In this document: positions 7,845-50,488 of the stretch, in pieces
How positions within the stretch are numbered: position 1 is the stretch's first letter
Layout of the letters: every line of letters begins with the position of its first letter
Assembly (NCBI RefSeq): GCF_900109885.1
Contig: NZ_FOBS01000020.1
Span: forward strand, 1-62,356
Direction: 5' to 3'
From: Syntrophus gentianae
GTDB lineage: Bacteria; Desulfobacterota; Syntrophia; Syntrophales; Syntrophaceae
DNA: 62,356 nucleotides
Translations under genes and position numbers: made by a program
The notes under the pieces: generated by a model
What the model saw: only the letters and a program-made list of their open reading frames with translations
What the model was told of the DNA's origin: nothing
Database searches by the model: none

Positions 7845-8864
7845 ATGTATCAACAATTGTCAATGGAAAGGATCAGCCGTTATGCTCGGCTTGCCTTACC
7901 CCTCATGTCCAAACATGACATACCCTTAATACCAGAAAATTATTCTGTTTGGTTTACATATGTTTCCGGTGTCGACAAAGATCTGACGAACAGGATCGAC
8001 ATGATTATTAAAAATGGAGCTTACTTCACACATACGACAAATGAAGAACTCTATCGTCAATTTTTCACCGAAAAAAATGATCATGAATTAGAAAGGATAC
8101 ATAAGGATTTACATCTGGCCTTGGTCACGATTATCAAACATCTGATGGAATTGTCCGGTCAGTCCCAGGATTACGAATCCTTTGTTTCTGATTCTGTCAG
8201 TATATTGTCCGAAAAATCTTCATTAGAAGATATCAAGAAGATTACCAGGGAAATCATAAAAAAAACAAAAATAATGACGACATTCAGCAAGACCCTCAAG
8301 AATGAATTGAGTCATACCATGAAAACCCTCGATGTACTCAAGAAAGATTTCGAACAGATCAAAATGGAGATCATCGAAGATTTTCTCACAGGGATGGCCA
8401 ATAGAAAAGCTTTCGATGAAACCCTTGCCATCAAGATGGAAGAAGCCATGGTTGAGTCCACGGATTTGTCCTTACTACTCATCGATATAGATCATTTTAA
8501 AAAATTCAATGACAAGCATGGACATCTGATAGGAGATGAAGTGTTGAAGTTTGTGGCGAAGAAGACAAGAGAAATGGTGCGGGGAATCGATTTTGTGGCA
8601 CGCTTCGGCGGTGAGGAGTTCGCTGTTCTTCTGCCCCAGACTTCGCTTAAAGGGGCTGTGGTGGTGGCAGAGAATATCAGAAAATTCTTTGCCCAGGTAC
8701 AATTAAAGGCTTCATCAACCTCAAAACCCCTGGGAAGTTTAACGGTATCCATCGGTGGAACAAGTTATCGCCCGGGAGAACCTCCGGAAACATTTCTCGA
8801 CCGTTGTGATCAAGCACTTTACTCTGCCAAGAAGGCGGGCAGAAACAAGGTAGCTTGCGCGTGA
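7845..8864 (+). CDS. Diguanylate cyclase with GGDEF domain
   Basis: 339 residues. The N-terminal ~165 residues are a helical sensor-like region without transmembrane segments, and a coiled region precedes the GGDEF domain (about residues 180-337). The active loop reads FGGEEF, and RGID sits five residues upstream, so the inhibitory I-site (RxxD) is intact. It should make cyclic di-GMP and be feedback-inhibited by it. AAGGGAGG (7828-7835) gives the ribosome site. Cyclic di-GMP commonly controls pili and exopolysaccharide, both encoded in this window, but no direct link can be seen. Confidence 0.9.
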   Translation: MYQQLSMERISRYARLALPLMSKHDIPLIPENYSVWFTYVSGVDKDLTNRIDMIIKNGAYFTHTTNEELYRQFFTEKNDHELERIHKDLHLALVTIIKHLMELSGQSQDYESFVSDSVSILSEKSSLEDIKKITREIIKKTKIMTTFSKTLKNELSHTMKTLDVLKKDFEQIKMEIIEDFLTGMANRKAFDETLAIKMEEAMVESTDLSLLLIDIDHFKKFNDKHGHLIGDEVLKFVAKKTREMVRGIDFVARFGGEEFAVLLPQTSLKGAVVVAENIRKFFAQVQLKASSTSKPLGSLTVSIGGTSYRPGEPPETFLDRCDQALYSAKKAGRNKVACA

Positions 8865-9225
8865 CGGACCTATGACGAAATGATTAACATAGAAACCTTA
8901 CGGGTTGCACGTCCATTGGTGCTCCAAATCTAAAGAAACTTGCCACAAAAATACGCTCTCCTCAAATTTCACTTTCAATAAAAATCCGGCACGCCTTGTA
9001 TTCCCCCTGAAGGTTTTCAGCTAATTCTAGCAAACAGATTCTGTTTCTGATAAAGTTACTACTAAGTGGTTAATATGTTTATTAATGCTTTTTTATTGAT
9101 TGCTTCGACCAATCGATGGGGACTGGCTGCTTTTTTTAAAAAAAAATGTCAGATCGAGCCCTTCTCCCTACCTATTCATCTTTCCTGCTGTCGACTTTTC
9201 TCGACAGGCAACGAAACAAGGTTTA
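8865..9225. other. 361-bp intergenic stretch before the hybrid kinase
   Basis: AT-rich with several T-runs. I see no gene, tRNA or strong hairpin. It presumably contains the kinase promoter. Confidence 0.4.
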
Positions 9226-12003
9226 ATGGAAATGAAAATGAGTGATAGCAATCAATTGTATCAAGAACTTATCGAGGAAAATACCCGCCTGAAAAAAAGG
9301 ATTCAGGAATTTGAAGAGCAAGGAAATCCGACGGAAAACAGGAAGGAAACCTTTCTTGAAAATGAAGCGCTCTTTCGATTTATCGTGGAGAATTCCCTCG
9401 ATATCATCTCTATTTTCGACCTGAACCTGCAGCTTTCCTATGTCAGTCCCGCTGTTTCCCACATCCTGGGGTTTACCGTCGAGGAGGCAATGGAACAAAC
9501 CCTTGACCCGATCTTTCCCCCGGAATCCCTTGAGCGCATCCGCTCGGCTTTTGCAGAAGAAATGCAACAGGAAGCATCCGGAAAGGCCGATCCAACAAGG
9601 GTGCGCATCCTGGAGGTTGAAGCATATAAAACGGACGGCTCCCGCCTCTGGATGGAGATTAGATTCTCCTTCCTGCGAAATCGGGAGGGCAAGGCTCTCG
9701 GCATCCTGGCCGTATCCCAGGACATCAGTCATCGTTATCAAGTGGAACAGGCGCTGCGAGAATCCGAAGCATACCTCCGAACCATCTTCGACAACACGCA
9801 CGATGCCATATTTATTCACGACGTTGAGGGAAACATTCTGGACTGCAACCAGAGACGGCTGGAGTTATACGGCATTACTCGTGACCAGGCCCTTTCCGGA
9901 TCCATTGTCAAGGATTTCTCCGCCCCGGACAATCCCTTTGAAAAGCTGCCTGGCCTATGGAAGCGGGCCCTGGAAGGAGAACCGGTATCCTTCGAATGGA
10001 AGGCAAAACGACCGAAAGACGGGTCCACTTTCGATATGGAAGTCTCGCTCAAGCGGATTGTTTTGGGCGGCCGGCCGGTCATCCTTTCAAATGCCCGGGA
10101 TATCTCTGCCCACAAGGCATGGGAGGCTGCTCTGCGAGAGAGCGAGGAGAAGTTCCGCGCCCTGGTGGAAAACTGCGGTGACGGGATTCTCCGTATAGAT
10201 CGAAACCATCGTTATCTCTATGCCAACTCCGTCGTCACGGAACACACGGGCATCCCTGCCGGGAACTTTATCGGCAAGACCATCCATGAACTCGGCCTTC
10301 CGGAGGAGATAGGCTCCCCGTGGTACAACGCTGTCGAGCAGGCTTTCTGTTCCGGGGAGATTCAGCGTCTTATCTTTCAGTTTCCCAGCGGCCGGTGGTT
10401 TGAATCAATCCACATCCCGGAAAGGGACGATACGGGACAAGTCAAGGCGGTGATTGCCTCGGTGCGCGATATAACAGAACACAAAAAAAACGAAGTCATG
10501 CTGGCAAGACTTTTTCAGGCTGCCCCACTGGTTATCTGCGCCACCAATTCCCGGCGAATCATCACCAAAGTCAATGATTTTGCCTTTAAGACCTTCGGCT
10601 ATACTCCGGAAGAAATGCTGGGGCGTGATCCAGCATTCCTCTATTTCAATGACCAAGACTATCAGGATGCGGCAGAGGCGCTCTACACCCCGGACAATCC
10701 CACTAGGGAACTGCGGATGAAGCGAAAAAACGGCCAAGCCATCTGGGCACTGATCAGCCGTTCCCATCTCAATGGCATGGACACTTCTGACGGATCGATC
10801 GTTGTCGTCCAGGACATCACAACCCGTAAAGCCCTGGAAGAACAACTCCGGCAGGCCCAGAAGATGGAAGCCATCGGCCAACTGGCGGGGGGCGTCGCCC
10901 ATGACTTCAACAACATGCTCCAGGCCATCCTGGGTTACACTAATATCGTGCTGCACATGCTCGAACCGGATGACAAACGGTATAAAAAGTTGATGGAAGT
11001 TGAAAAGGCCGGGGAAAAGGCGGCCCAGCTGACCCGGCAGTTGCTCGCTTTCAGCAGGCGGCAGGTGCTTAAGCTCGGCCCGCTGGATCTGAACCAGATC
11101 ATCGATGATCTGCTGAAGATGCTCCGCCGCCTCATCGGTGAAAACATCGACTTGAATCTTGTTACGGACAAGGCATTATGGACGGTAAACGCCGACCGCG
11201 GGCAGATGGAACAGGTGCTCCTCAATCTCTGCGTCAATGCCCGGGATGCCATGCCTGACGGAGGATGGCTGTCCATTGAAACAGCCAATGTCTCGTTCGA
11301 CGAGGACTATTGCGTCAGACATGATTGGGCAAAGCCGGGGGATTACGTCCTGTTGAGCATTACCGATTCCGGCTGCGGCATGGACGAAGAGACAAAACAG
11401 AGGATATTTGAACCCTTCTTTACTACAAAGGATCAGGGACGTGGCACCGGACTGGGACTGGCGACTGTTTACGGCATCGTGCGGCAGCACGAAGGGATGG
11501 TCTATGTCTATAGCGAAGTCGGGAAGGGAACCAGATTCAACGTCTATCTACCGGCCATTGAAAAGCCGGCGGATGAAATCCCTGCCGAAGCACCGGAACC
11601 GGTCTCCGGAGGGCCTGAAACCATTCTGCTGGCAGAGGATGATGAACCGCTCCGGTTTCTGACGGAAGAGATCCTCAAGTCGGCGGGTTATCGCGTACTG
11701 ACGGCCGTCGATGGGGAAGACGCTCTGCGCGTCTACCGGGAACATGGACAGGAAATCGACCTTTTGCTGCTGGATGTCGTCATGCCCCGGAAAGGGGGAC
11801 ATGAGGCCTGTGATGAAATCCGCACGATCCGCCCCGGTATTCCCTGTATTTTTATGAGCGGCTACAGTGAAGACGCCATTTCCAAGAACTTTGTCGTGGA
11901 ACAGGAATTCCGCCTGATCCAGAAGCCGTTCAAGAGCTTGGACTTATTGAGAACATTACGGCAGGAGCTGGATCATCCTCAGCGGGAAGGCGTTCGGGAA
12001 TAG
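9226..12003 (+). CDS. Four-PAS hybrid sensor histidine kinase
   Basis: About 925 residues, apparently soluble. After a short coiled coil come four PAS domains (roughly residues 40-165, 178-295, 303-420, 425-540). Next is a HisKA segment with [17 protein letters not shown] (phospho-accepting His), then a HATPase domain with [16 protein letters not shown] and [15 protein letters not shown], and finally a C-terminal receiver domain with phospho-accepting Asp in LLLLDVVMP. It should relay phosphate to a partner that is not adjacent. ATGs occur in frame at 9226, 9232 and 9238; AAGG at 9218-9221 favours one of the first two. The open frame continues upstream to 9100, but that part has no family resemblance. 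Confidence 0.9.
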
Positions 12004-12425
12004 CTGTCGCTTTAGAAAGGGAGGTTTCTCCCAATGACATGGATCTGGCACGCTCCAGCCACAGACAGCTTGTCTTTTGATTTATCCATTGCTCTATCAA
12101 AAATGTGGATTAATCCTTGCCATTATCTATTTATACGTCTTTTATCCCAGAGTAAGAATTTTGAGCTTCCCAAAAATCATCCTATCCCCGATTGCATGAT
12201 TGCTCCCTTTGATTTACAATTCTACAAGATTAGTGTTCGATAGCATCGTTACTAATTCAAAAAGAGTTCCACAGGTCAGCGTTGTTTGTAAAAGGAAAAA
12301 CGGTCTGGCACAATCCGATGACTTCACCGGCATGGAAAAAGGAGGTGATAACATCTTTACATGCCCTATGGATGACTTTCCTTGGAGGGCTATTTGCTCT
12401 CTAATTAACCGAAAGGAGACGTGAA
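12004..12425. other. 422-bp leader region of the first PEP-CTERM gene
   Basis: It contains a small GGGAG/CTCCC hairpin after the kinase stop (about 12018-12031), the conserved 57-bp block (12103-12159), a GGAGGTGATA sequence (12341-12350), and the ribosome site AAAGGAG just before the ATG. No gene is supported inside it. Confidence 0.7.
12103..12159 (+). promoter_or_regulatory. Conserved PEP-CTERM upstream block, copy A
   Basis: ATGTGGATTAATCC, 12 nt, ATTTATA, 4 nt, TTTTATCCC, 2 nt, AGTAAGAAT. The same segments with the same spacings occur at 49365-49421, upstream of the other PEP-CTERM gene; 44 of 57 positions are identical. GGATTAATCC inside it is a perfect 10-bp palindrome, and TTTTATCCC carries another ATCC half. 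It ends 266 bp before the start codon at 12426. It looks like an activator or operator site plus promoter for a PEP-CTERM regulon; that role is inference. Confidence 0.75.
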
Positions 12426-13103
12426 ATGAGAAGATTGGTCTTATTGATTACCGTTTTAGCGTTCCTGGTAACTGCACCAAAGACCTTTGCGGGCATAGTA
12501 GCAGATCCCGGCTTTGATTTATTGCCAGCTGGTGTTGGAGTAGAGGGTAGCGGAGGGTTGGTTGGCCCATTCTGGACAGGGTATTCAACAGGTAACCCTA
12601 CATTCTGGTATCAGACATGGGCATGGCAGAATGCTGCTGTTACGCCTCCGAACGTGCAAGAATGGTGGGATGGAAACCTGATTGGAACAAGCGGCATTTA
12701 TCAGGCAAACATCCCTGTCGTTGTGGGACAATGCTATACAGCAAGTGTCTGGTACACTGATCCATGGCAAATGGGAGCTTTCAGCGCCGATATAAGAATT
12801 GGGATTGATTTTCTTGGAATTGCTCCAGGTCCGGGTTTAGGTCTCGGTGCACCGTTAACTACGATCTGGTCGCCATGGGTTCCCGTTGGGATGAATTGGG
12901 CTCAATTGGTTACGCCTGGCATGGTTTCTCCCGCCGCCATGGCAACATTGTATATAGAGACCCGGTCCCGTCCAGGATCAGGTCTGCCTGACAGGGTATA
13001 CATAGATGATGCTCAGATGCAGGTCGTCCCTTTACCCGCATCGATACTCCTTCTTGGTCTTGGTCTTGTTGGACTGACAGGAGTCAGAAGAACGATGAAG
13101 TAA
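12426..13103 (+). CDS. Exported PEP-CTERM sorting-domain protein
   Basis: 225 residues with a signal peptide (residues 1-22, cleaving near TFA), a beta-rich body full of Trp, Gly and Pro (about 23-195), and a C-terminal sorting tail: VPLPASILLLGLGLVGLTG followed by basic RRTMK. Such tails are recognised by exosortase (EpsH/XrtA type) during export to an exopolysaccharide-rich surface. No exosortase gene lies in this window. The body has no family I recognise, though the layout recalls carbohydrate-binding jelly-roll domains. AAAGGAG precedes the ATG. It shares only its tail with the protein at 49871-50488, yet both have the same upstream block. Confidence 0.85.
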   Translation: MRRLVLLITVLAFLVTAPKTFAGIVADPGFDLLPAGVGVEGSGGLVGPFWTGYSTGNPTFWYQTWAWQNAAVTPPNVQEWWDGNLIGTSGIYQANIPVVVGQCYTASVWYTDPWQMGAFSADIRIGIDFLGIAPGPGLGLGAPLTTIWSPWVPVGMNWAQLVTPGMVSPAAMATLYIETRSRPGSGLPDRVYIDDAQMQVVPLPASILLLGLGLVGLTGVRRTMK

Positions 13104-13885: not shown

Positions 13886-15523
13886 TCAATTGGTCACTTG
13901 ACGCCAGGAAATCTTTTCCAGATTTCTTACCCGCGGTGTTCCCGGCGGCAGATTACTCAGACTGATGTTGTATGACCAGTTTCGGGTCGGTGCGTTGTAA
14001 ACGCTGCCCGTCCCTGGCCATTTTGTTGTAGCCTGCTGACTTTGCCAGAGGCACGCCAGAGATCCACCATAGGTGAAGGTCTGTCCGGACCAGTTTTCCA
14101 GAAAGCGGATGAGATTTTCCACACCTCCACTGTAATTGCTTCCGGCAGTCGCCACATTCCCGGTCACAACGGCAGTATTGACCGTTGTGGCGGTAGCGGG
14201 GCGGCTGGATATGCCGGAGGCGCTGTTCGTGTCGTTCCAGCTGTTGGAAAGGACCGTCAAGGCATCGGAGAAAACCGCGGCCGCCTTGTTGTCCGTATTG
14301 TAATCGCCCTGGATGTAAAGGGGATTGTTTGTAGCCACGGAAAGCCCTCCGGTAGGCAGGCTGCTGCCGTTTATCAGACGTACCGCTGGGTTCGTGATGT
14401 TGTCGGAAGAAACATAGAGAATGCCGGAATCACATCCTGTGGGAGGATCATTCAACGCAGCCATAGCCACGGGGTTTGACGCAAGCACTGAGACATCCAC
14501 CTGCACGGTAGACATGACTTTGCTTTCCCGCTGGTCCGTAAAATCGGAGCTGGTGACGGTGATGGGATTCGTATAAGTCCCGCCGGCCGTAAGATCGAGA
14601 ACGTTGCCGCTCTTGTCATAGGCGGTACCGTCAATGATGCGCAGTCCGGATTGTGCGTGGAGGCTGCTGGAATCGGTGGTGCCGAGAATGTCAATGGGGT
14701 TTGAACTCGATGTTGATAAAGGCATATTGAGACTCGTAATGCCATGGTCTTCCGATTTGACCGTTCCACCCCACGTACTGGTCGCATCCTCCTTCCACGT
14801 TGAGCTGGAACTGTCAAAATTCAGCCCTTTAAGCGTTCCGGAGGAATTCGCGATCATCACGTTATTGGTCCCGGGCGAAACGGTAGAGTCCTTCCTCCCA
14901 TGATAAATATCGCCGGCCGCCGTGACTCGGGTATTGATCGTGAGCGTCGCTGAGGAATACATATACATATCGCTGTTGGAATGAATGCGGCCGCCAGAAA
15001 AGGTCATGTTGGCCCCCGGGAGCATTTCGAGGTCCTGTTCGTAGAAGATGCCGAACTGGAACAAGGGGATAAGCTGGTCTTCCATATTATAGATCACCGT
15101 GGCTCTGGAGTTTGTGTTGTTTTTGGCGGCGGTGGAAGTAATTGTATAATTCTGGCAGTAAGCCATCAGTCCGGCATAATCCCCCTTCGTCACTGTTTTC
15201 TGAGTCTCAGTCCCTACTTTGGCAAGGAACCCGGAAGTTGTAAAAGAAAATCCGCTCATCGTTGGCGGAACAACGCTGGAGGTGGATCCATTCAAGACCT
15301 TCAATGCAGCGCGCAGCCGGTTCACTCCATACTCGGCGCCGGCTTCGGCGGCATAGAGGACCTCCTCTCCTGACCTATAATTGCCGCTGATTTTCAAGTC
15401 CGTGGTGCTGTTCAGAAGAGCCGTGGTTCCGAGAATGGCTAAAACGGCAACAAGGAGTATCCCGACCACCAGCATGACACCTTTTTCATCTGCCAACGGT
15501 TTTATGATTCTGTTCAGTTTCAT
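13886..15523 (-). CDS. pilX: PilX-type type IV pilus assembly protein, unusually long
   Basis: 545 residues. The N-terminus is PilX-like: a basic start, DEKGVMLVVGILLVAVLAIL membrane helix, then LNSTTDLKISGNYRSGEEVLYAAEAG, the typical post-helix stretch. Minor pilins of this type are processed or inserted in the inner membrane and prime pilus assembly. Usual PilX is under 200 residues; here a ~400-residue Ser/Thr/Asn-rich extracellular-type domain follows, with strings such as FSGGRIHSNSDMYMYSSATL that suggest beta-helix repeats. It is the last gene of the fimT-pilV-pilW-pilX group, and no pilY1 or pilE follows, so the extension may replace part of PilY1's role. That is inference. Confidence 0.75.
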   Translation of the reverse strand: MKLNRIIKPLADEKGVMLVVGILLVAVLAILGTTALLNSTTDLKISGNYRSGEEVLYAAEAGAEYGVNRLRAALKVLNGSTSSVVPPTMSGFSFTTSGFLAKVGTETQKTVTKGDYAGLMAYCQNYTITSTAAKNNTNSRATVIYNMEDQLIPLFQFGIFYEQDLEMLPGANMTFSGGRIHSNSDMYMYSSATLTINTRVTAAGDIYHGRKDSTVSPGTNNVMIANSSGTLKGLNFDSSSSTWKEDATSTWGGTVKSEDHGITSLNMPLSTSSSNPIDILGTTDSSSLHAQSGLRIIDGTAYDKSGNVLDLTAGGTYTNPITVTSSDFTDQRESKVMSTVQVDVSVLASNPVAMAALNDPPTGCDSGILYVSSDNITNPAVRLINGSSLPTGGLSVATNNPLYIQGDYNTDNKAAAVFSDALTVLSNSWNDTNSASGISSRPATATTVNTAVVTGNVATAGSNYSGGVENLIRFLENWSGQTFTYGGSLACLWQSQQATTKWPGTGSVYNAPTRNWSYNISLSNLPPGTPRVRNLEKISWRQVTN

Positions 15524-15568
15524 ACATTCTCCTTATCAATATTCAAATCTTGAATTTTTCTAGCAGAA

Positions 15569-16375
15569 TTACCACTTTTTCTTAGTTGTTGTCTTCGTTG
15601 TCGTCGAAGTGGTTGATGACGATGATGTCGTTGATGAAGTTGAAGTCGTTGATGATGATGAGCTTGATGATGAGCTGGAAGAGGAGCTCGTTGTTGAGGT
15701 CGACGCCACGATGCTGTCATCCGTTGGCAGATTTCGAATAGCCACCTCGGAAGCAAGGGTGTAGGTCCGGTAGCTTCCCGTGTTTGAATCCGGTTTGGCA
15801 GACTGTGCCGTCAAGGATACCTGCACCGCCCTGATACTATCGAGTTGGGCGGACGTTGGAGTCGTTGTCTGGGTTTCGTCATCGAGAATGTACGTAAAAT
15901 TTAAATTTTCAATATGTTCCACAACCGGATTCTTCGTCCCGTTGGACGTTCTCCCCAGGCACTTCACTCCATCCGAGGTATAGAGGTCATAGCTGATGTT
16001 TTCATTCGGATTTGTAGAATCAGCGGTGGTGTCTCCATCACCGTCGAGGTCGGAAATGAAACTGATGGAATTGGCCGTCGCGGCAGTGATCCCAGGCTTG
16101 TTCGTACCGGTCATACTTGTAGGATTATAGCCGGCGATCCGGATTTCCCGGGAAAGCATGTCCATGGCGGCCCGGGCATTCTGTTGCAATTCCACAACCT
16201 GTTCCTGATTACTGAATGTTTTATTCTGCACGTTAAAGATATTGTACATTGCATAAAGAACAATCAGCCCTATTGCCATTGCAACTAACAATTCAAGAAC
16301 GGTAAAACCGAGCGCCCTGGGATTTTTTTTTAAATATCGTTGCATAGGAGAGAGAATCCTTTCTGCAATGAACAT
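15569..16375 (-). CDS. pilW: PilW-type minor pilin with Ser/Thr-rich tail
   Basis: 268 residues. The prepilin signature is ALGFTVLELLVAMAIGLIVL, with cleavage expected after Gly by the peptidase at 18358. The body (ELQQNARAAMDMLSREIRIAGY) is PilW-like. The last ~45 residues are almost only Ser and Thr, ending in KKKW; the DNA there is a run of degenerate GTT/GAT-type triplets. An inner ATG at 16345 gives a shorter, more typical leader. The start lies 8 bp after the pilV stop, so translational coupling is likely. The Ser/Thr tail could be an O-glycosylation target or simply a slippage-prone linker. Confidence 0.8.
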   Translation of the reverse strand: MFIAERILSPMQRYLKKNPRALGFTVLELLVAMAIGLIVLYAMYNIFNVQNKTFSNQEQVVELQQNARAAMDMLSREIRIAGYNPTSMTGTNKPGITAATANSISFISDLDGDGDTTADSTNPNENISYDLYTSDGVKCLGRTSNGTKNPVVEHIENLNFTYILDDETQTTTPTSAQLDSIRAVQVSLTAQSAKPDSNTGSYRTYTLASEVAIRNLPTDDSIVASTSTTSSSSSSSSSSSSSTTSTSSTTSSSSTTSTTTKTTTKKKW

Positions 16376-16383
16376 GTCATCGA

Positions 16384-16833
16384 TTATTGTGCTACCGAGG
16401 AGCTTAATGTGACCTGACGGGAATTACCCATCCATGACCACGTCACACTTACGGTAATGTTTTTCATATCATCTGATGGATCGGCATCTGCAGCATCGGG
16501 ATCCACCGTTGCAATGGTCCACGATCTTGTGAAGTATGCACCGGACGCCGAAGTTTGAACCGTTCCGGAACTCGTTGCATAATCCGTATTGGTACCGTCT
16601 GTTAAAGACGCATAATCCGTATTTTTTAATTCTTCCAGTTTCTCCCCGGCCAATGTCGTTGCAGTTGTACTGGCCTTGCTGGAGGTGTTGGCCCTGACGA
16701 CCGTCGCGGTTAAACCGACCATTTCCGTCAGGGCGACAACGAGAATCAAAATGGCCACTAATACCTCAAGCATTGTAAAACCGGCGCTGCTATCTATCCG
16801 TCTCATCTCTGTTTTTATAATGTTAGGTCTCAT
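16384..16833 (-). CDS. pilV: Type IV pilus modification protein PilV
   Basis: 149 residues with the PilV prepilin N-terminus: SSAGFTMLEVLVAILILVVAL, Gly-Phe cleavage site and Glu at mature position 5, followed by TTATTLAGEKLEELKNTDY, common in this family. It is a minor pilin that helps initiate pilus assembly in the inner membrane. It lies between fimT and pilW on the minus strand with short gaps. Alternative ATG at 16806 would shorten the leader; neither start has a strong ribosome site. Confidence 0.85.
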   Translation of the reverse strand: MRPNIIKTEMRRIDSSAGFTMLEVLVAILILVVALTEMVGLTATVVRANTSSKASTTATTLAGEKLEELKNTDYASLTDGTNTDYATSSGTVQTSASGAYFTRSWTIATVDPDAADADPSDDMKNITVSVTWSWMGNSRQVTLSSSVAQ

Positions 16834-49364: not shown

Positions 49365-49421
49365 ATGTGGATCAATCCAAATCCTTAACAATTTATAAAC
49401 CTTTTATCCCGTAGTAAGAAT
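49365..49421 (+). promoter_or_regulatory. Conserved PEP-CTERM upstream block, copy B
   Basis: ATGTGGATCAATCC, 12 nt, ATTTATA, 4 nt, TTTTATCCC, 2 nt, AGTAAGAAT, matching copy A (12103-12159) at 44 of 57 positions with identical spacing. It ends 449 bp before the ATG at 49871. The inner GGATCAATCC keeps the GGAT/ATCC palindrome with one centre change. Confidence 0.75.
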
Positions 49422-49870
49422 AATAGAGGGACTAAAAAATCAGGTTGTCTGACGATGTATAATATTGTATTTTTTTACCATGTAAGTTGGTAAGGATTGG
49501 CCTAAGTTCAAGAACATATGAACATAAATCTGCTCAGTAATCAGCTACTCGTATGATTTCGCTAGAATGTTCGTATTCTGACCGACTCACCATTTCATAT
49601 ACACCTGTCATAAATACTCAGCAGATCTTCTCTCATTTCAAACAGATGAAAGACAGGCTTTTAATCAACGGATAAACACTCACCTTTTTTTTCAGAAAAT
49701 ATGGCGGTTCATTTTGACTTTGAGGCAACTATCGTTCAAATCAATTATCTTGCCAGCAATCATTAATTGTCGAACACGGGGAGGTGATATTCTAATCTGA
49801 GATGATCATTGTTGTTGAGGGCTTGTAGGAGGAAAAGGATAAAAAATAGAAAAAGTAAGGAGGGGAAATT

Positions 49871-50488
49871 ATGAGAAACAAGGGATTGTTTGTTTTGTTC
49901 GTGATTGGTTCATTTTTGCTTTTTAACACGATAGTGAGCGCTGCGCCTATTTTCTTTAACGATCGAGCTTCGTTTAATGTAGCAGCTGGTGGTGGGTTGA
50001 GCTTCGAAAGCTTCGAAAATGATTTCGCAGTAGCTGAGACAATTGTTTTCAATGGTTTTACAGTGAGCGAAACAAGCGGTATTAATGCGCTCGGGCAGCT
50101 TAGAGATTTTCCAGGTTTGGTTAATGCGATCACCGACGGAACAGGGGGGCTTGGTTACGATGATAATGATGACAGCATTGGTAGTTTTTTTGCTTTTACT
50201 AATGCAATCAGTGCCTTCGGCTTAGACATAGCAACAAATCCTGGCAGCACCATTACGATAGGAGGCAGTGTGAACTATGTCCTGCCCCTGGGGAATAACA
50301 CGCCATCGTTTTGGGGTGTGATTGATACCGCGGGCATCACCTCGATCACGTTCGACGCAAGCGGTGGGCCTAACGTCGGGTTCGACGCTGTTTCGTTTGG
50401 TCAAGTGGTTCCTATCCCCGCTGCGGTGTGGCTCTTCGGTTCCGGTCTGGTTGGGTTGGCAGGACTAAGGAGAAAGTTCCAGAAGTAG
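49871..50488 (+). CDS. Exported PEP-CTERM sorting-domain protein
   Basis: 205 residues. Signal peptide with LFVLFVIGSFLLFNTIVSA (cleaved near residue 26). The mature body is beta-rich and acidic (FFNDRASFNVAAGGGLSFES, ETIVFNGFTVSETS), similar in outline to the extracellular domain found in many PEP-CTERM proteins. The tail is VPIPAAVWLFGSGLVGLAG followed by basic LRRKFQK, a standard PEP-CTERM signal for exosortase processing. AAGGAGGGG precedes the start and a terminator follows. It shares no body similarity with the protein at 12426-13103 that I can see. Confidence 0.88.
   Translation: MRNKGLFVLFVIGSFLLFNTIVSAAPIFFNDRASFNVAAGGGLSFESFENDFAVAETIVFNGFTVSETSGINALGQLRDFPGLVNAITDGTGGLGYDDNDDSIGSFFAFTNAISAFGLDIATNPGSTITIGGSVNYVLPLGNNTPSFWGVIDTAGITSITFDASGGPNVGFDAVSFGQVVPIPAAVWLFGSGLVGLAGLRRKFQK

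Follow-up and report, generated by a model that had tools for sequence, protein, structure and literature searches.

The stretch of DNA analysed, hereafter the window, is contig C20 (62,356 nucleotides) of the Syntrophus gentianae genome (G000; 3.71 Mb in 71 contigs). Two of its genes encode secreted proteins with sorting tails, and each is preceded by a copy of a common block and by predicted promoter hexamers, at the following positions.

12107..12162, plus strand: proposed operator block, copy c1 (conserved columns 11-66 of the 11-copy alignment; overlaps the block as first noted, 12103-12159)
12192..12197, plus strand: predicted -35 hexamer of c1, TTGCAT, distant-spacing class (from the downstream motif and hexamer geometry)
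12215..12220, plus strand: predicted -10 hexamer of c1, TACAAT, 17 bp after the -35 (from hexamer geometry); predicted start at about 12227
12426..13103, plus strand: gene for a 225-residue secreted protein with a VPLPA-CTERM tail (TIGR03370, 32.7 bits; cut-off 25.35)
49369..49424, plus strand: proposed operator block, copy c2 (from the 11-copy alignment; overlaps the block as first noted, 49365-49421)
49445..49450, plus strand: predicted -35 hexamer of c2, TTGTCT, near-spacing class (from the downstream motif and hexamer geometry)
49468..49473, plus strand: predicted -10 hexamer of c2, TATTTT, 17 bp after the -35 (from hexamer geometry); predicted start at about 49480
49871..50488, plus strand: gene for a 205-residue secreted protein with a VPIPA-type tail (TIGR03370, 27.5 bits; cut-off 25.35)

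An earlier note on this DNA had called both gene products PEP-CTERM proteins. Both indeed pass the VPLPA-CTERM model TIGR03370, but against the Pfam PEP-CTERM model (cut-off 20.7) the 225-residue protein is borderline, with 24.5 in one search and 20.4 in another, and the 205-residue protein scores 17.9 in one search and gives no hit in another. The block itself was found as the note had described it: positions 12103-12159 and 49365-49421 align ungapped with 44 of 57 bases identical, 266 and 449 bp from the respective start codons. For a random background with the AT-rich base composition of the block itself, the window should contain about 3e-4 such pairs, and other background compositions give still fewer. 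The consensus pattern of the pair, with up to three mismatches allowed, matches exactly twice in the window and in none of 100 shuffles.

Directly upstream of c1 (7845-12003) lie two genes, one for a GGDEF protein, the other for a hybrid histidine kinase with several PAS domains. The domain hits of the two proteins include no DNA-binding domain and so give no link to the block. Beyond the c1 gene, the minus strand at 13886-16833 carries genes resembling those for minor pilins of type IV pili, with hits to PilX_N and, twice, to N_methyl.

Eleven related blocks in the genus Syntrophus

The two window blocks are members of a family with 11 copies in all, seven in the S. gentianae genome and two each in the Syntrophus genomes G001 and G003.

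c1 and c2: in the window
c3: C12:10480, plus strand
c5: C51:7357, minus strand
c6: C43:17705, plus strand
C32 copy: C32:482, minus strand
C30 copy: C30:350, plus strand
G003a and G003b: in G003
G001a and G001b: in G001

Pattern scans yielded copies three to five, c6 among them, and a profile built from five copies then added six: C32 and C30 in G000 and the pairs in G001 and G003, of which G003b and G001b were weak in the first profile search (E 0.01 and 0.06). In a matrix made from all copies but G001b, the lowest-scoring copy was G001b itself with 34.9, compared with 16.3 for the best other site among the loci scored. Leave-one-out scores ranged from 29.9 to 69.2 for the copies, against 17.0 for the best non-copy at these loci; C30 and G001b are orthologous and, each scored without the other, reach only 20.1 and 23.3. 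Any two copies agree at 29-55 of 69 positions, and to some extent the copies share descent.

When the 11-copy profile was run at E 0.01 on 155 genomes of the class, under stricter filters that may miss weak copies, it matched in five: G000, G001, G003 and, with borderline matches, G047 and G136. The latter two were rejected on their matrix scores (17.0 and 12.4), and there is no convincing copy elsewhere among the 155 genomes; profile searches also gave none in G002, the fourth Syntrophus genome. An earlier profile search at E up to 0.1 matched in 27 of 149 genomes, with none below E 0.008 outside G000, G001 and G003; the weak matches outside these three genomes (E at least 0.008) were taken, as a group, to be probable chance matches. 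Exact-pattern scans of wider contig collections returned four stretches from genome contigs and one from a viral contig. The only true copy among them (L094, MVRU01000131.1, Syntrophus sp. PtaU1.Bin005) lies on a contig of G001 (C131); in each of the remaining four stretches the top-scoring site reaches only 1.5-4.0. Also discarded were a profile match in G000:C16 (no site above -11.2) and, as no copies by the matrix, three of seven places of one pattern scan (L001, L004 and L006) and six of ten of another; one of these pattern matches, at C12:5063, fits the second half of the block only.

The earlier note had drawn attention to a GGATyAATCC palindrome. Both window copies have it, but across the family only 7 of 11 copies keep it whole, and it is not the best-kept part of the block. 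A palindrome or tandem half-sites as the core of the block were rejected, as neither autocorrelation nor periodicity of the 11-copy matrix was significant; the best value for an internal repeat or helical periodicity was p ~0.09, near 10.25 bp.

Predicted promoter hexamers downstream of the block

A Gibbs motif search downstream of the block found a TTG-containing motif at two distances on its 3' side. The motif scores 12.59 at width 14 and 15.66 at width 20, compared with at most 10.37 and 11.82 in shuffles, which had fewer restarts than the real data. Taken as a -35 element, the TTG is present in 10 of 11 copies (that of G003b was anchored by hand, the search having picked another site), and 10 of 11 have a TA at exactly 17 bp from the hexamer; of the other spacings between 0 and 59, none has a TA in more than four copies. 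This spacing was noticed by eye ahead of its test, in which the mean -10 score was 1.64 at 17 bp and -0.19 at the next best spacing; none of 2000 shuffles scored as high. The exception is c6, which in the alignment lacks the TTG of the -35 as well as the TA of the -10.

Conservation has the limits expected of a promoter. Two 30-bp stretches upstream of the block show a mean pairwise identity among the 11 copies of 0.25 and 0.26. The value is 0.64 for the block itself, 0.53 immediately ahead of the -35 and 0.74 for the TTGnnT -35; it is 0.36 for the 17-bp spacer, 0.55 for the TAnnnT -10, 0.31 for the 20 bp past it and 0.24 for the leader. This profile changes little when G001b is left out. This bounded segment conservation leads us to read block and hexamers together as an operator with a sigma-70-type promoter. 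The earlier note had suggested that the block may be an operator or promoter; the link to a promoter stands, but the hexamers lie beyond the block ends first noted, 33-61 bp downstream for c1 and 24-52 bp for c2. The long leaders that it thought possible are also predicted here, at 199 and 391 nt. A further motif upstream of the block was rejected: its Gibbs scores at the two widths were only slightly higher (10.1 against at most 9.75 and 12.58 against at most 11.58) than in shuffles with fewer restarts, and its sites were scattered. By hand count on the alignment, c2 and G003a share 24 of 29 bases upstream of the block, a likeness that is not general by the segment profile.

In six copies the -35 begins within alignment columns 84-87, in the other five within 94-96. 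The means of the two classes (85.0 and 95.4) are 10.4 bp apart, about one helical turn. Inside a spacing class the -35 shifts by as much as 3 bp, so any helical phasing may not be strict.

We consider it likely that, in the genus Syntrophus, the block acts as operator for a sigma-70-type promoter that depends on an activator. A putative DNA-binding activator would occupy the operator of about 56 bp, approximately from -108 to -53 in the near class or from -120 to -65 in the distant class, and would contact RNA polymerase at a promoter in which 17 bp separate a TTGnnT -35 from a weak TAnnnT -10, activating rather than repressing it. The activator is probably an oligomer, because conservation extends over about five helical turns, and the difference of roughly one turn between the classes would place it on the same side of the helix in both.

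Class I activator-dependent sigma-70 promoters have their operator upstream of the -35, a weak -10 and a tolerance for spacing changes of one helical turn. The Syntrophus element resembles them in having its proposed operator 5' of the -35, a weak predicted -10 and a spacing shift of about one turn; the proposed operator is unusually long and asymmetric by comparison. The best-kept 3' part of the block, TAAGAAT(TTT), is like one half of the RcsAB box, with one half-site only; the RcsAB system, too, controls an exopolysaccharide. This likeness may at most serve as a lead to a regulator of the NarL/LuxR type.

Genes behind the copies

Eight of the 11 copies have an intact next gene, 66-391 nt past the predicted start, and in six of these eight, a count that includes the orthologues C30 and G001b, the gene encodes a protein with a VPLPA/PEP-CTERM-like sorting tail. 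The distances from predicted start to sorting-tail gene are 199 (c1), 391 (c2), 88 (c6), 79 (C30), 191 (G001a) and 134 nt (G001b). The TIGR03370 cut-off of 25.35 is exceeded by the products of the c1 gene (32.7), the c2 gene (27.5) and a gene beyond c5 (27.8); the c6 (19.4), C30 (21.5) and G001b (19.6) genes stay below it. The G001a gene, not listed among these matches, encodes an NF038122-family metalloprotease with a VPLPPA tail. The tails of all block-bearing sorting-tail genes are of the VPLP or VPIP type. Behind the two G003 copies come genes with no sorting tail: a SHOCT-domain gene that looks lipoprotein-like by eye (147 nt from the predicted start) and a GNAT gene (66 nt). A ferritin-like gene beside the SHOCT-domain gene at G003a has relatives in G001 and G000, but the search gave no block at those loci, and the G001 orthologue of one of the block-bearing G003 genes has none. 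The proposed promoter would accordingly stand mostly, not only, before genes for secreted proteins with VPLPA/PEP-CTERM-type sorting tails.

On a narrower reading, the factor that binds the block would be a dedicated one, serving PEP/VPLPA-CTERM genes. Sorting-tail genes do follow both G001 copies and all four G000 copies whose next gene is intact. A search of G000 with PF07589 at E up to 10, however, gave 38 matches, 14 of them above the cut-off (matches as weak as the remainder also occur in 13 of 14 control genomes), and in only 4 of the 36 loci examined from these 38 is the block directly upstream. A few of these 36 loci stop short of the full upstream region, and whole-genome profile searches returned no further copy; at a fifth sorting-tail locus of G000, on C51, the block lies behind IS-like remnants. 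The dedicated factor is also at odds with G003, where both copies stand before other genes and the two stronger sorting-tail loci (L097 and L100) have no block. We regard it as possible but doubtful. The general PEP-CTERM regulon envisaged by the earlier note is not supported in view of the same 4 of 36 loci, of the SHOCT and GNAT genes of G003 and of G002, which lacks a convincing copy. The genome-wide matrix scan with a count of downstream genes that the note had proposed gave sorting-tail genes at most copies with an intact next gene, but reached only a subset of the sorting-tail genes; the block occurs neither mostly away from such genes nor in the manner of a repeat fragment. The note was half right, in that the block is probably a promoter-linked operator, but one of a subset.

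Three of the seven G000 copies meet IS-like remnants or a contig end soon past the predicted start (L048:10609-11100, L049:6010-7239 and L128:1-364), as if insertions were favoured or tolerated near these three copies. Behind c3 come a 60-residue frame with a signal-peptide-like start and then frames resembling transposase remnants, and behind c5 IS21-like remnants, an 811-residue secreted protein and a VPLPA-CTERM protein; the C32 copy runs to the contig end via a transposase-like start (remnants and transposase start judged by eye). These surroundings would suit a piece of some repeat or mobile element with no regulatory function. Such a fragment is unlikely, since the copies are single, differ considerably from one another and have unrelated flanks, since operator and hexamers are well kept while the spacer between them is poorly kept, and since the predicted starts of eight of the 11 copies stand 66-391 nt before an intact gene. 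Large RTX-type repeat proteins are encoded beside c3 on the opposite, minus strand (L048:5274-8438, by eye, and 8730-10160, by Pfam).

Relation to known PEP-CTERM control

In the passages of Haft et al. 2006 (PMC1569441) that we draw on, a PEP-CTERM control site consists of a 17-nt motif 1, a gap of about 63 nt and a sigma-54 motif 2, paired with PrsR/PrsK/PrsT; motif 1 ends in TTTACA and lies 32-92 nt before the sigma-54 site. This site and the block are both conserved non-coding elements in long upstream regions of single sorting-tail genes and both are thought to bind an activator. They differ in that the block measures about 56 bp, has sigma-70-type hexamers and occurs with no PrsR above the cut-off, whereas the published site is a 17-nt motif with a -24/-12 promoter. 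According to the relevant part of PMC9850573, pepA of Aquincola tertiaricarbonis likewise has a mapped -24/-12 promoter that needs RpoN1, while the Syntrophus promoter is a predicted one of sigma-70 type with an unmapped start. In Desulfovibrio vulgaris, five predicted PEP-CTERM targets are enriched with the regulator DVUA0057, as given in part of PMC3333781.

That the block is itself a PrsR enhancer acting on a sigma-54 promoter would agree with the long intergenic regions and with a sigma-54-like site of score 10 located 43 bp before the c1 start codon. The other five of the six block-bearing genes, however, have sites scoring 7 or 8, which is the level of shuffles, and the conserved hexamers 3' of the block have sigma-70 geometry. 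PrsR (TIGR02915) gives 55 matches in G000, none above the cut-off (best 434.8 compared with 502.6 bits), and for this reason the published sigma-54/PrsR site does not explain the block. We judge this reading quite unlikely. TTTACA is absent from both 57-bp blocks; at c1 it occurs at 12213-12218, a place shared in part with the predicted -10 and about 164 bp upstream of the sigma-54-like site. An element of the transcribed leader acting through RNA structure instead of a DNA site, to which the long distances to the start codons might point, is very unlikely, given that the predicted start lies downstream of the block and that Rfam at gathering scores finds only two tRNAs in the window.

Sigma-54-like sites, scored against a consensus taken from general knowledge, reach at least 10 upstream of 6 of 46 sorting-tail genes, compared with 1.95 expected from shuffles. 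The scan leaves out 6 of 52 loci whose frame is doubtful or cut (L033, L034, L035, L047, L096 and L102) and five weak matches (L103, L104, L106, L107 and L109). The six genes comprise four with VPEP tails, from five such genes scanned, together with c1 and one VPIPA gene of G003; at the VPEP-tailed genes (L018, L019, L020 and L099) the sites lie 45-66 bp upstream of the start codon. The kind of tail and the kind of promoter may be associated. Building on the operator and sigma-70-type promoter that we favour, one might tentatively picture a second, PrsR-independent circuit for exosortase cargo, in which a dedicated activator on the 56-bp operator would drive a selected subset of the VPLPA-type surface proteins through a sigma-70 cassette found repeatedly at unrelated genes, the VPEP genes of the same genome would use sigma-54-like promoters, and tail and promoter type would be linked; we think this somewhat improbable as a whole. 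One exosortase of G000 is above the TIGR02602 cut-off, and its best NCBIfam model is XrtD (TIGR04152; 397.9 bits, cut-off 400). This XrtD-like exosortase (L149:1402-2979, G000:C9) has an EpsI domain fused C-terminally, and sugar-transfer genes, identified by eye, adjoin it.

The promoter class described for PEP-CTERM genes in the cited parts of PMC1569441, PMC9850573 and PMC3333781 is of the sigma-54/PrsR type, and Haft et al. state that more regulatory proteins and DNA motifs must exist for PEP-CTERM systems (PMC1569441). The Syntrophus element is a candidate for such a further control motif, with base-level geometry and in syntrophic bacteria; the literature searched held no report of a Syntrophus PEP-CTERM promoter. 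With it, the choice of exosortase cargo becomes approachable as a promoter question.

Both leaders in the window contain GGAGGTGAT, at 12341-12349 and 49780-49788, 85 and 91 bp before the start codon and with no obvious frame behind it. We take GGAGGTGAT to be a full anti-Shine-Dalgarno match, and it perhaps belongs to a leader peptide or a translational element.
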